DNA from: Methanocella paludicola SANAE
GTDB taxonomy: Archaea; Halobacteriota; Methanocellia; Methanocellales; Methanocellaceae
NCBI RefSeq assembly: GCF_000011005.1
Contig: NC_013665.1
Span: forward strand, 1,054,001 to 1,118,000
DNA: 64,000 nucleotides
Direction: 5' to 3'
The notes below the pieces were generated by a model. The model was given only the letters and a program-made list of their open reading frames with translations. It did not search any database and was not told the origin of the DNA. Both the position numbers and the translations under genes were made by a program. Positions 30,758 to 61,025 of this stretch are shown piece by piece; within the stretch, counting starts at the first letter, position 1, and every line of letters begins with the position of its first letter.

Positions 30758-31059
30758 TTCATGTAATCATAGGACATCCGGCGATTTATCTTTTCCCCAC
30801 ATAATCGCAACGGTCCGGCCCTTATCCTGTATAACGGCGAAATAACTCTCCATTATGGCTTATACTCGGAAACAGGCCTTGTTATGGTAAAAGGTCGTCC
30901 AGGAGGACCGGGCGATAAGTACCGGCTCATATATCGAATCATCTTCCCCCATATACGCATTAATCCTCCCAATTGGCTATTATAAACGCACTTTAACAGG
31001 GCAACATTAAAAAAGAATAAAAAATTAGGGATAGTATGGCATTAGAGTGGGGTGTTTTG

Positions 31060-31311
31060 ATGGCAGAGAAAAAAGCAGAAATGACGGTTAGAGAGGCTGG
31101 ACACAAGGGCGGGTCCACCACGAAAGAACGCTACGGCGAAGGGTTTTACGAGGAGATCGGCAAGAAGGGCGGCAAGATCGGCGGTAAGAAGGGCGGGACT
31201 ACCACCAAGCAGCGCTATGGTGAAGGGTTCTACGAGGAGATCGGCCGAAAAGGCGGCCAGAAGGTACGTGAGCTGATCGCGCGCGGCAAGGCCGCGATGG
31301 AGAAGAAATAG
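31060..31311 (+). CDS. KGG-repeat small hydrophilic protein (stress-type)
   Basis: The 83-residue protein begins MAEKKAEMTVREAGHKGG. It has two near-identical modules of the form T(K)xRYGEGFYEEIGxKGG, ending KVRELIARGKAAMEKK. This is the KGG motif found in stress-induced small proteins of bacteria and archaea, related to plant Em-type hydrophilins. An ATG 24 bases earlier is in frame, but the MAEKK start matches the paralogues at 34483. GGGGTG lies 5 bases before the ATG. The role is probably protection in desiccation or salt stress; this rests on the family, not on data here. Confidence 0.82.
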   Translation: MAEKKAEMTVREAGHKGGSTTKERYGEGFYEEIGKKGGKIGGKKGGTTTKQRYGEGFYEEIGRKGGQKVRELIARGKAAMEKK

Positions 31312-34274: not shown

Positions 34275-34460
34275 ATGGCGGAAGAGAGAAAAGGCGAAAT
34301 GACCGTCGAGGAGGCCGGCCGGAAGGGCGGGCACAAGGGCGGCGAGAAGGTCAAGGAAAAATACGGGCCCGAGTTCTACTCCAAGATTGGCCACAAGGGC
34401 GGCCAGCGTGTAAAGGAGCTCATCAAGGAAGGCGAGAAGGTCGAACGTGAAAAGAAGTAG
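34275..34460 (+). CDS. KGG-repeat small hydrophilic protein
   Basis: The 61-residue protein begins MAEERKGEMTVEEAGRKGG and has the modules KEKYGPEFYSKIGHKGG and a Lys/Glu-rich end. GAGGGTG precedes the ATG. It lies 22 bases before another KGG gene in the same direction and is clearly homologous to it and to 31060-31311. Confidence 0.8.
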   Translation: MAEERKGEMTVEEAGRKGGHKGGEKVKEKYGPEFYSKIGHKGGQRVKELIKEGEKVEREKK

Positions 34461-34482
34461 GCGGGCTTGAGGAGGTAAGGAT

Positions 34483-34683
34483 ATGGCGGAGAAAAAGGAA
34501 AGCAAGGGCGAGATGACCGTCGAGGAGGCGGGCCGGAAGGGCGGCGAAAAGACCGCAAAGACCCACGGGCACGAGTTCTACGAGGAGATCGGGCATAAGG
34601 GCGGCGAGATCGGCGGTAAGAAGGGCGGCCAGCGCGTCAAGGAGCTTATCGAGGAGGGCAAGGAAGCCGAAGAGAAGAAGTAA
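34483..34683 (+). CDS. KGG-repeat small hydrophilic protein
   Basis: The 66-residue protein begins MAEKKESKGEMTVEEAGRKG, with KTHGHEFYEEIGHKGG and IGGKKGGQRVKELIEEGKE. A strong GGAGGTAAGG precedes the ATG. With the gene at 34275 it forms a tandem pair. A T-rich terminator and a long palindrome follow. Confidence 0.82.
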   Translation: MAEKKESKGEMTVEEAGRKGGEKTAKTHGHEFYEEIGHKGGEIGGKKGGQRVKELIEEGKEAEEKK

Positions 34684-34693
34684 ATGCGCCGTA

Positions 34694-34710
34694 TTCTTTT
34701 TTTTATTTTG
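34694..34710 (+). terminator. T-rich terminator after the KGG gene pair
   Basis: TTCTTTTTTTTATTTTG lies 11 bases after the stop of the 34483 gene. It is conserved together with the following palindrome at the 42.8 kb copy, so it may also be part of that repeat. Confidence 0.5.
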
Positions 34711-34720
34711 GATCTTGTGC

Positions 34721-35139
34721 GTTTTGGGATGATAAATTGCTTTTGCCAATGCACATACTCGTTTTTCCGCTATGCCGTCTCGGAGTGGTCCAACCACAGG
34801 GGCACGGAGCGCACAGGAGTTACACAGAGTTATTTATAGGTGGAGGCTCAGAGCGCACGGAGGACGGGTTTATACTTACCTGAGGCACTGAGTTTAACGA
34901 GGCACTGCCGAGGATAAACCGGATAGTTGTTTATTGGTCAACCGTGTCTCAATAAACTCTGTGCCCTGGGTAAGCCAATAAACCGGGCTCTGAGTCCTCT
35001 GAGTCTCAAATTATTAAAAAATAACTCTGTGAAACTCCCGTGCGCTCCGCGCCACTGTGGTTGCTCGAATTCGCATCAGCGAAAAGGACACTCAACGAAG
35101 GCATAACATTAAATGGTTAGAAAATGTTTATCCCAAAAC
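34721..35139. repeat. Long imperfect palindrome (CTCTGTG family, copy A)
   Basis: GTTTTGGGAT at 34721-34730 is inverted at 35130-35139. Inside are matching words such as AACCACAGGGGCACGGAGCG against the inverse CGCTCCGCGCCACTGTGGTT. Other words are GAGGCACTG, GTTTATTGGTCAACCG and CTCTGTGCC. The centre around 34900-34960 includes GAGGATAAACCGG. It fills the gap between the KGG gene and the ABC ATPase, and no gene is present. Copy B at 42834-43230 matches it over its whole length, including the flanking T-run. Confidence 0.88.
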
Positions 35140-35152
35140 CACGGATGAGTCT

Positions 35153-36388
35153 TTATTTTATCATTTTGAGTTTTTCAAGCATCTGCTCTCCGGTATTTAC
35201 TGTGGCGGCACCTGAGGCCTTGATCCTGTCCAGGAGGGCCGTCGCAACACCATTCGTAAAATCCCTCGGCACATCCTTTTCGACCATGATGACGGGCGTT
35301 CCCGCCTCAAGGACGGCCTCAAGGTTCTTGAGATTGCCACTTCCGAACGGGACGTCAGAGATCACGATAATGTCGGCCTTTTTCATCAGGCCGACCACTT
35401 CGGAGTATGCCTCGGGTGTGATGGGCGAGAACGGGGCCTCGCTCACCGCATGGATATTAAGCTGCGAGGCGGTCTCATAGTCCGAGTCGAGCACGTTGAG
35501 GGCGCCCGTGGTCACGCTATAGCCGCCCGACCTGAGCAGGTACATGAGCTGTGTGCCGGTGCCGGCTCCGCAGACGAGGTGTACGGTGCGGCCGTTAGAG
35601 GTCCCCGCGGACTCCAGCGCGTTGAGTAATGTAACATAAAGGTAGCCGGTCAGGGGGTGCTTTTTCACCATGACGTTCGCCCTGAACGCCATGCGGATAT
35701 TCTCCCGGGTGATAACGTCGTCAGGGCCGCCCGTGGCCAGTATCTTATTATTGAAGAGCAGGATGAGCCGGTCGCAGTAACGGGCCGCCAGGTTGAGGTC
35801 GTGCAGTATGATGATGACGACGAGGCCGCGCTCGTTCTTCAGCCTTTCCACGAGGTCAAGGATCTCTATCTGGTGGTTGATGTCCAGGTGGGATACGGGC
35901 TCGTCCAGCAGGAGCACGGACGGCTGCTGGGCAAGCGCCCTGGCGATGATGACCCGCTGCCGCTCGCCGCCGCTTAGCTCCACGAACGGCCTCTCCCGGA
36001 GGTGCCACGTGTTCGTGAGCATCATCGCTTCCCTCGCGATGCCGGCGTCCTTCAGGCCTTCGATCTCGAACCGGCTCATGTGGGGATTACGGCCCATAAG
36101 GACGACCTCGAGGCAGGTGAAGTCGAAATCGATGTTCGTGTCCTGGGGAACGACCGCCATGTGCCGTGCCAGCTCCTTAGGCGAATATCGCTCCAGCTCC
36201 TTTCCGCATAGGACGACCTTGCCCGATGAGGGCTTCAGGATCTTGCTGAGCGTCTTCAGCATCGTGGACTTGCCGCTCCCGTTGGGGCCGAGGATGCCGA
36301 TGCACTCGCCCTTTTCGGCGCTGAAGGTGACGTTGTCGAGCACTTTGGCCGTGCCGTAGTTAAAGGAAAGGCTCTCGATGTCCAGCAT
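35153..36388 (-). CDS. FecE/BtuD-type ABC ATPase with extra C-terminal domain
   Basis: The 411-residue protein has an N-terminal ATPase of about 255 residues (Walker A GPNGSGKS, signature LSGGERQRVI, Walker B SVLLLDEPVSHLDI). A further domain of about 150 residues follows. It begins RTVHLVCGAGTGTQLMYLLR, has a Rossmann-like look, and contains IVISDVPFGSGNLKNLEAVL. Some archaeal corrinoid transport ATPases carry such an extension, possibly for ligand or corrinoid-salvage linkage. It starts 2 bases after the end of the permease gene. No binding protein gene is adjacent, so the SBP at 21122 or one elsewhere must serve. Confidence 0.85.
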   Translation of the reverse strand: MLDIESLSFNYGTAKVLDNVTFSAEKGECIGILGPNGSGKSTMLKTLSKILKPSSGKVVLCGKELERYSPKELARHMAVVPQDTNIDFDFTCLEVVLMGRNPHMSRFEIEGLKDAGIAREAMMLTNTWHLRERPFVELSGGERQRVIIARALAQQPSVLLLDEPVSHLDINHQIEILDLVERLKNERGLVVIIILHDLNLAARYCDRLILLFNNKILATGGPDDVITRENIRMAFRANVMVKKHPLTGYLYVTLLNALESAGTSNGRTVHLVCGAGTGTQLMYLLRSGGYSVTTGALNVLDSDYETASQLNIHAVSEAPFSPITPEAYSEVVGLMKKADIIVISDVPFGSGNLKNLEAVLEAGTPVIMVEKDVPRDFTNGVATALLDRIKASGAATVNTGEQMLEKLKMIK

Positions 36389-38835: not shown

Positions 38836-38929
38836 TATTTTGTATCTGGGGCTTTTGCCCCTTTTTTAAATTTTATGCCGGGTTTAATTTCCATTATCTC
38901 ACTCGCACATCAAAGACCGCGAAGCTGGT

Positions 38930-39918
38930 TAAGTTCGCGAAGACTGTTTCGAGCCCTAAGACCGCCAAGCTTACGCGAAGACCGCGAAGATAATTTAAAA
39001 TTTGAATTATGCAAAATTTTGGATAACTAATGTTGTCAGTTATCTCACTACCCTGTACTATGGTTTATTTTCCTTTTACTGTTCATAGTTTGCGACAGAC
39101 TTACAGCGTCATGGTTTTGAACCACAAAGGCACGACCAGTAGTTACGTATTTGTTTTGCAATAGTATATCCTTGTTAGCGTCTTTCGCTGGGATGGTTCG
39201 GTTTTACAACACGAAGACACAAATTTCTTTTTTAGAGTTTTAACACTAAATCGTGAAGACACTGTAAACACAATTAAGCCATGAAAACTCAAAGCCTCTA
39301 TTAAGCGAATTAAGCCGCTAAAACACGGCTATCAAGACACGAACGAATGACGTAAATCACGAAGTGCCACCAAACTAAGACAAAAAGTAAACGCCATACC
39401 AGCTTCCATTCGCCTGCTTACCAGATCATTACCGGTTAAGATTTTTAACCTTAACAACGCCCGCTATAACAATAGTTAATCTATTTGTCTTATTTTTGTG
39501 GCACTTCGTGGCTTAAGTCGTTCGTTCGTGTCTTGATAGCCGTGGCCTTGGTGTTCTAATTCGCTTAATAGGGGTTTCATGGTTTCATGACTTAATTGTG
39601 TTTACAGTGCCTTCATGATTTAGTGTTCGTAAAATCTAAAAAGAATTTTGTGTCTTCGTGTCTGAAACCGAAGGGCCGTACGTGAGACGCATCGAATCAG
39701 ATCGATTAAAAAAGCGAACACGGAACTAGTGGCGACATCACAGAGATTCAGTAAGATTTTTTTAAATGTAAGATACCAGGCTCACAAAGGTAGCGCCTAA
39801 ATTTAAATTAATAAGGTAAAAATCCTATATTTATCTTTTTTATAGTTAGTCTTCGCGGTCTTTGCGCAAGCTTCGCGATCTTCGGGCTCGAAATAGTCTT
39901 CGGGGACTTGCTCTTCTT
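38930..39918. repeat. Nested large palindrome, outer arms about 65 bases
   Basis: The left outer arm at about 38930-38992 contains TTTCGAGCCC, AAGCTTACGCG and AAGACCGCGAAGA. The right arm at about 39847-39918 is its inverse (CTTCGCGGTCTTTGCGCAAG, then GGGCTCGAAATAG). The arms are about 850 bases apart and enclose a second inverted repeat at 39197-39672. The whole 38836-40058 gap shows no convincing gene. Confidence 0.8.
39197..39672. repeat. Inner imperfect palindrome (CACGAAGACAC words)
   Basis: The arm starting TTCGGTTTTACAACACGAAG at 39197 is inverted, with small gaps, as the arm ending CTTCGTGTCTGAAACCGAA at 39672. Inner arms are AAGCGAATTAAG, CTATCAAGACACGAACGAA and AAGTGCCACCA, each with an inverse in the right half. 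The style is like the CACGAA family at 1.0 and 50.2 kb but without the GGTCGGTATCACGAA ends. Confidence 0.8.
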
Positions 39919-40058
39919 AGCGGGCTTAAAACCCGGGCGATTCTAAAAGCTTATAGGCAGATAATCAACGATAACCTCTAATAAAATAAGGTATGGCGAG
40001 GGTAGGCCCCCAAGAAGCCCGCCCCGACCACCGAAGCACATTCCGGGCGTAGCGCCGC

Positions 40059-42798: not shown

Positions 42799-42833
42799 AA
42801 ACCATTTTTTCTTTTATTTTGGTTCTTGTGCGT

Positions 42834-43230
42834 TTTTGGGATGATATATTGCTTTGGCTGATGCCTTCGCTCGTTTTTATGTTATGCCGTCGTTGAGTGG
42901 CCCAACCACAGGGGCACGGAGAGCGCTGAGTTTCACGGAGTTTTCTTATAAATGGAGACCCAGAGGGCACAGGGGACGGGTTTATAACTTTCCCGGGGCA
43001 CGGAGTTGAAAGAGGCACTGCCGAGGATAAACCCGCATTATTGTTTATTGGTCAACCGAGCCTCAATAAACTCTGTGCCCCAGGCAAACTAATAAACCGG
43101 CCTCTGAGCTCTCTGAGTCTCAAATTATTAAAATAAAACTCTGTGTAACTCCTGTGCGCTCCGTGCCCCTGTGGTTGGACCACTCAACGACGGCATAACT
43201 AGAAAAGAATAAAAAATATTCATCCCAAAA
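42834..43230. repeat. Long imperfect palindrome (CTCTGTG family, copy B)
   Basis: TTTTGGGATGA at 42834-42844 is inverted as TCATCCCAAAA at 43220-43230. Between are CCCAACCACAGGGGCACGGA and its inverse TCCGTGCCCCTGTGGTTGGA, plus GGCACTGCCGAGGATAAAC and GTTTATTGGTCAACCGAGCC near the centre. It aligns in the same direction with copy A (34721-35139) over about 400 bases. The gap 42799-43287 has no gene. Confidence 0.88.
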
Positions 43231-43287
43231 CCGCGGAAGAGTCTTTATTTTTTACCTGATGTAAAGAATTTAAAAAATAGCTGACCA

Positions 43288-57284: not shown

Positions 57285-57308
57285 TTTTTCTTGCTCTTAT
57301 TATGCTTT

Positions 57309-57748
57309 GCAGTCTTGGCGTGTCCTCAACCACAGAGACGCAGAGCGCACGGAGTTTCACAGAGTTTTTATTTAATAATTTGAGACTCAGAGGGCACGAA
57401 GCCCGGTTTATTGGCTTACCTGAGGCACAGAGCTTATCGAGGCACGGTTGACCAATAAACAATTTAACCGGTTTATCCTCGCCAGTGCCTCTAACTACTC
57501 CGTGCCTCAGGACAGTTATAAACCCGTACTCCGTGCCCTCTGAGCCTCAATTTTTAAAAAAACGCCGATGAGTCGTAGGCTCGTGCATAATTGATGAAAA
57601 TTGTATGGACTTTTGGATTCAAACGACTATTTTGTACTATTATGGAAATACCTTCTATGTCAGCCCTTTAACATGACATTTTCATAGGAAATCTCTGTGT
57701 GTCTCTGCGCTCTCCGTGCCCCTGTGGTTGAGGACACGCCGAGACTGC
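57309..57748. repeat. Long imperfect palindrome (CTCTGTG family, copy D, reversed)
   Basis: The outer 27-base arms at 57309-57335 and 57722-57748 match in 26 positions (GCAGTCT, GGCGTGTCCTCAACCACAG). The centre has TCGAGGCACGGTTGACCAAT and GGTTTATCCTCGCCAGTGCC, the inverse of the centres of copies A-C, so this copy lies in the opposite direction. About 130 bases near 57565-57695 interrupt the right arm. No gene lies in 57285-57818. Confidence 0.88.
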
Positions 57749-57818
57749 ATCGTTAAAAATGAAAATTTCATTATCAAAATGATGGGCATACGACTGCATA
57801 GCTGTAAGCGATAATCAG

Positions 57819-60602: not shown

Positions 60603-60668
60603 AGGGTCCTTGTATGTTTTTAAAACATGATGTATTGCTTTAGCTAATGAAATTTCTCACCATTCCCT

Positions 60669-60983
60669 GTTATGCCGTCTCGGAGTGGTCCAACCACAGG
60701 GACATGGAGAGCGCCGAGTTTCACAGAGTTTTCTTATAGATGGAGGCTCAGAGGGCACGGAGACGGGTTTATACTTTCCTGAGGCACGGAGTGCTTAGAG
60801 GCACTGGCGAGGATAAACCTGCTAAATTGTTTATTGGTCAACCGTGCCTCGATAAACTCTGTGTCCCGGGTAAGCCAATAAACCGGGCTCTGTGTACTCC
60901 GTGTCTCAAATTATTAAAAAAACTCTGTGAAACTCCGTGCGCTCTGCGCCTCTGTGGTTAAGGACACTCCACGAAGGCATAAC
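60669..60983. repeat. Long imperfect palindrome (CTCTGTG family, copy C)
   Basis: GTTATGCCGTCTCGGAGTGG at 60669-60688 is inverted imperfectly at 60962-60983 (GGACACTCCACGAAGGCATA). Inner words include CAACCACAGGGACATGGAGA, GAGGCACTGGCGAGGATAAA and GTTTATTGGTCAACCGTGCC. It matches copies A and B in the same direction. The gap 60603-61025 has no gene. Confidence 0.88.
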
Positions 60984-61025
60984 GAGAAAAGGATAGAATT
61001 TTTCCATAAAATCTCGGAATCTCAA

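Follow-up and report, generated by a model that had tools for sequence, protein, structure and literature searches.

The window analyzed here, 64,000 nucleotides of the single-contig genome of Methanocella paludicola SANAE (2,957,635 bases; 2.96 Mb), carries a conspicuous repeat, copy A, between two oppositely oriented genes. Its left neighbor, at a distance of 26 bp, is a small KGG-repeat stress-type gene (34286 to 34687 region), and several such genes (con-10-like; 31036 to 31311 and 34286 to 34687) are found in near-tandem order upstream of copy A. On its other side is an ABC-transporter gene on the reverse strand (35153 to 36388). The first-pass annotation had placed a long imperfect palindrome at 34721 to 35139. 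The palindrome itself stands, but its limits do not. When 21 young copies are aligned, they match over their whole length and end sharply at GGTTCTTGTGCGTTTTTGGGATGATAT on the left and ATTCATCCCAAAACCGCGGAAGARTC on the right, with unrelated sequence beyond; thus, copy A extends from 34710 to 35151 (442 bp, forward strand), and the earlier concern that the copies might fail to align in full was not borne out. The ends consist of 24-bp terminal inverted repeats at 34710 to 34733 (forward strand; family consensus GGTTCTTGTGCGTTTTTGGGATGA) and 35128 to 35151 (reverse strand; family consensus read inward, GACTCTTCCGCGGTTTTGGGATGA). These repeats are imperfect, with 19 of 24 positions identical between left and right, and they coincide with the points at which the flanks diverge. 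Directly outside them is a perfect 8-bp direct repeat, TTTATTTT, at 34702 to 34709 and 35152 to 35159, the right member of which includes the stop codon of the opposing transporter gene.

The interior of copy A is a palindrome with a left arm at 34771 to 34919, a hairpin loop at about 34920 to 34928, and a right arm at 34929 to 35105 (both arms on the forward strand). Its outer arms (34791 to 34835 and 35019 to 35063) are 91% complementary, and it folds far better than shuffled sequence both as DNA (z = -11.2) and as RNA (z = -12.6), with 0 of 100 shuffles as good in either case. Just 3' of the loop lies the conserved center, GTTTATTGGTCAACCG (34929 to 34944, forward strand). The word AACCACAGGGGCACGGAG (34792 to 34809, forward strand) is the core common to free palindromes of other phyla, and its CACAGAG-word counterpart occupies 35045 to 35062 on the reverse strand (CTCCGCGCCACTGTGGTT on the forward strand). 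The described build from CACAGAG/CTCTGTG-like words was confirmed. The window contains 20 occurrences of CTCTGTG, versus 4.8 expected. No open reading frame of at least 80 amino acids is contained in the element, and the statement that copy A has neither coding capacity nor a transposase was correct.

BLAST searches within the window retrieved three further copies, at approximately 42.8, 57.3, and 60.6 kb. Copy B (42821 to 43243, forward strand; 423 bp) belongs to the young subfamily, whose mean identity is 95%. Copy C (57304 to 57750, reverse strand) is degraded and interrupted by the insertion of a short repeat, and copy D (60605 to 61023, forward strand) is diverged, with decayed ends. The center noted in the first-pass annotation is indeed conserved, being present without mismatch in all four copies (the other three at 43043 to 43058, at 57445 to 57460 on the minus strand, and at 60829 to 60844). 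A T-run shared by copies A and B had also been reported; the shared sequence is real, as TTTATTTT also flanks copy B (42813 to 42820 and 43244 to 43251), but it represents an 8-bp target-site duplication (TSD) rather than a plain T-run, and the two copies share this 8-mer by coincidence. The proposed genome-wide search was carried out and found about 40 places that match copy A, many of them on both strands, as expected of a palindrome. Approximately 13 copies no longer have recognizable ends, and diverged subfamilies add further places. Being short (423 to 442 bp), multicopy, and devoid of a transposase, the element is a miniature inverted-repeat transposable element (MITE). The palindrome is thus the inside of a nonautonomous transposon, not an uncharacterized free repeat. 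We note two kinds of disruption of individual copies: another small repeat (ATGAGYCGTRGGCTCGTGCATAATWGATGAAAATT...TTTTCATAGGAAAT) sits inside L011 and L039 (in L039, at about 57490 to 57620 of the window), and a different copy (L051:2839-4683) is broken by approximately 1.39 kb with a 5-bp overlap, which suggests that a subsequent insertion duplicated 5 bp.

Target duplication is general in the family. Among the 31 copies with both ends recognizable, 21 are flanked by an exact 8-bp TSD, and 27 match at no fewer than seven of the eight positions; 1,000 shuffles of the right flanks gave means of 0.8 and 1.7, respectively (maxima, 4 and 7). Four of the 31 lack a good TSD. The duplicated 8-mers are 95% A+T, with a bias to A in the leading half and to T in the trailing half. 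A paralogous empty site was also found, in that L219 contains a single ATTATTCA while at L003 the element lies between two. Another palindromic repeat, which contains GCGAAGAC words, hosts the copies at L003, L013, and L049 in its AT-rich middle, and intact copies of this repeat serve as paralogous empty sites. Together, the TSDs and the empty site are the signature of DDE-type transposition. The host repeat is itself a second palindromic family, with GCGAAGAC and CTTCGCGGTCTTCGC arms and an AT-rich center; it is present in the window (38917 to 39920) and in at least 20 places of the genome (L217 to L233), with at least eight intact copies and many split by inserts of 0.16 to 0.9 kb. Because several of these inserts are MITEs with ISL3-type ends, this family acts as a landing pad. 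At L010, L012, and L019, the flanking 8-mers are mismatched, with the left 8-mer of L012 equal to the right one of L019 and the right 8-mers of L010 and L012 identical; this pattern could be due to recombination among copies or to coincidence, as the 8-mers contain A and T only.

The strong hairpin invites a different reading, namely, a REP-like extragenic palindrome or a structural RNA or terminator that is kept by selection and spread by hairpin copying alone. Gene context lends it some weight. A crude gene caller, applied to 30 copies, put 19 of them in convergent intergenic regions, 10 in tandem ones, and 1 in a divergent one; the sole hints of insertion into a gene were three reading frames formed by joining the flanks, whose coding quality is doubtful. 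In simple counts the surplus of convergent sites is strong, but it is weak (P = 0.04) when the intergenic length of the window is weighed in, and a preference for AT-rich 3' ends together with removal of harmful insertions explains the context without a special function. No Rfam covariance model matched the window at gathering score. In a consensus fold of 21 copies, the covariation term contributed -1.43 of -135.9 kcal/mol; a gain so close to nil does not indicate selection on RNA. With precise 8-bp TSDs and inverted ends standing against it as well, we consider this reading very improbable. A structured RNA and a dedicated dual-terminator function were rejected on these grounds, although use of the element as a double terminator is possible, and a small-RNA or cruciform function of the palindrome found no specific support. 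A REP/RAYT element, a short hairpin of 20 to 40 nucleotides lacking target duplications, was likewise rejected for a 442-bp element with 8-bp TSDs.

The ends of the family point to a particular transposase type. Two close relatives carry ISL3 genes as judged by Pfam (five complete in genome G002 and one in G003), and the two sister proteins tested are ISL3 transposases by NCBIfam NF033550 (E value of about 1e-99). All five ISL3 elements of G002 have resolvable ends and exact 8-bp, mostly AT-rich TSDs; the ends are GGCTCTTCTCCATTTTTAGGATGA and GGCTCTTCTCCGATTGTCGGGTGA in three and GGTTCTTCTCCCTGTTTGGGATCG and GGCTCTTCTCCAAGGTTGGGATTG in two. The MITE ends are identical to these at 15 to 19 of 24 positions, and only 3 of 63,976 window positions, copies included, reach at least 16 matches to ISL3 ends. 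Additional diverged subfamilies of the M. paludicola genome (L228 to L232) also have ISL3-type ends, along with CACAGGGTCACGAAG words; one of their members, L229 (TSD, TTATCTTT), has an end identical to a sister ISL3 end at 21 of 24 positions. The G002 elements resemble the MITE in end type (GGYTCTTC..TTTTNGGATGA) and in their 8-bp, mostly AT-rich duplications. They differ from it in length (1.31 to 1.32 kb), in encoding a transposase of 402 to 407 amino acids, and in interiors that cannot be aligned with that of the MITE. Compared with two sister ISL3 elements, the MITE interior gave no match, only the ends being similar, and the MITE is not an internal deletion of either.

The ISL3 transposase profile PF01610 had no match in the M. 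paludicola genome and matched 4 of 14 control genomes. A sister ISL3 protein likewise retrieved nothing from this genome (a search run without a positive control of its own), and scans with end patterns for an autonomous partner returned only copies of the element and close subfamilies, with no transposase. The family is therefore an orphan, with a partner deduced from sister genomes. Because a MITE can outlive its partner, we apply the ISL3 label to the ends only and do not file the element as an ISL3 insertion sequence. Duplications of 8 bp are also made by other transposase families, such as those of the IS1595, ISH6, and IS66 types. Mobilization of the same MITE by one of these DDE families would fit a genome devoid of an ISL3 gene, but the end matches to sister ISL3 elements of up to 19 of 24 positions, and the 21 of 24 at L229, make this unlikely. 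We therefore regard it as highly probable that copy A is one member of a MITE family of about 40 copies that was mobilized in trans by an ISL3-family DDE transposase. Such an enzyme would have recognized the 24-bp ends of the element and, before being lost from this genome, placed it at A+T-rich targets with an 8-bp duplication at every insertion. The insertions that survive are found for the most part in AT-rich 3' portions of genes, frequently where two genes converge.

Similar words had been said to occur in other environmental genomes, and this proved correct. At least 119 stretches, drawn from public genomes of many phyla, contain the core word AACCACAGRGGCACRGAG, with hosts that include Planctomycetes, Verrucomicrobia, Spirochaetes, Cyanobacteria, Bacteroidetes, Chloroflexi, Proteobacteria, Sorangium, and Methanothrix, among others. 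Its two free positions are far from random among the matches listed (AA, 128; AG, 17; GA, 1; GG, 0), which marks a real word family rather than chance; the M. paludicola genome mainly has the GG variant. Free palindromes of the type AACCACAGAGG..CCTCTGTGGTT are found in many phyla and in G002. Across many phyla (L081 to L199), free AACCACAGAGGCACAGAG...CTCTGTGCCTCTGTGGTT palindromes span 55 to 280 bp. Their wide distribution could be taken to mean that the palindrome itself is the mobile unit and that the ISL3-like ends of copy A are chance flank. Against this, the boundaries and TSDs of the family fall at the ISL3-type ends, some 80 to 90 bp outside the CACAGAG words, and none of the 46 usable free palindromes (those with both halves found) has an 8-bp direct duplication. 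We assign this reading almost no probability.

The free palindromes thus share with the copy A family the word AACCACAGRGGCACRGAG and its reverse complement in a palindromic arrangement. Unlike that family, they have no ISL3 ends and no 8-bp direct duplications, and the palindrome often continues into their flanks, in the 46 cases more frequently than it does with shuffled flanks. Among the matches listed, no CACAGAG words in other phyla were surrounded by ISL3-type ends with a TSD. Because these words recur as free palindromes devoid of target duplications, the core of the MITE looks captured. The internal palindrome would then be passenger DNA, a free palindrome probably enclosed between ISL3 ends within the M. 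paludicola lineage. The phage and plasmid sequences searched contained no match to the element.

Sister genome G003 has a MITE family of its own, whose ends are similar (GGTTCTTCTGCGTTTTTCGGATC and GACTCTTCTGCATTGTTGGGATC) and several copies of which are bounded by exact 8-bp duplications. This family resembles the copy A family in these features, in having a palindromic core, and in numbering tens of copies, but its core is built of CGCGACG words rather than CACAGAG words. Thus, in two related species, ends of a similar kind enclose palindromic cores that have no relation to each other. A search for the same ends across the phylum gave many matches in G003 only, the other eight genomes yielding single matches with three mismatches. 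We tentatively suggest a broader scenario, which we think possible but rather doubtful as a whole: ISL3 transposition captured a preexisting CTCTGTG palindrome that spreads across bacteria and archaea without target duplication, and in the sister species it captured an unrelated palindrome, so that the presence of a long palindromic core may in itself favor the amplification of ISL3 MITEs, perhaps by drawing the two ends toward each other. If ISL3 ends repeatedly capture palindromic cores, the shape of the core, not its sequence, may matter for the success of a MITE. The analysis accounts for a prominent family of repeats in a methanogen-like genome, giving its exact borders, its targets, and the type of transposase that probably moved it. 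Two matters previously treated as one are now distinguished, namely, the family's ISL3-type mobility and the cross-domain CTCTGTG palindrome carried inside it.

Viewed against known systems, the repeat essentially belongs to a known transposon family, as judged by its inverted ends, 8-bp target duplications, and ISL3-type end sequences; the first-pass annotation had named such membership as an outcome that would refute its reading. The ISL3 element ISPpu12a has 24-bp inverted repeats and 8-bp direct repeats (PMC4133298), and IS31831 prefers A/T-rich targets (PMC1590026). The copy A family agrees with the ISL3 family in end-sequence type and in 8-bp AT-rich duplications; an ISL3 transposase in the same genome and an interior derived by deletion from the two sister ISL3 elements compared were not found. 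Our literature search found no paper on MITEs in Methanocella, and searches with sequence words returned only unrelated primers. A close parallel is an ISMac21-derived MITE of Methanosarcina acetivorans, which is 179 bp long and present in 6 copies, with inverted repeats of 22 and direct repeats of 7 (PMC3852290). The copy A family differs from it in size (about 423 to 442 bp), in copy number (about 40), in its long palindromic core, and in having no autonomous partner in the genome. Both are gene-less, multicopy elements of methanogen hosts that have ISL3-type inverted ends and a target duplication. Thus, copy A belongs to an orphan family of MITEs that combines ISL3-type ends with a long palindromic core and that joins the ISL3-type MITEs already known in methanogens.
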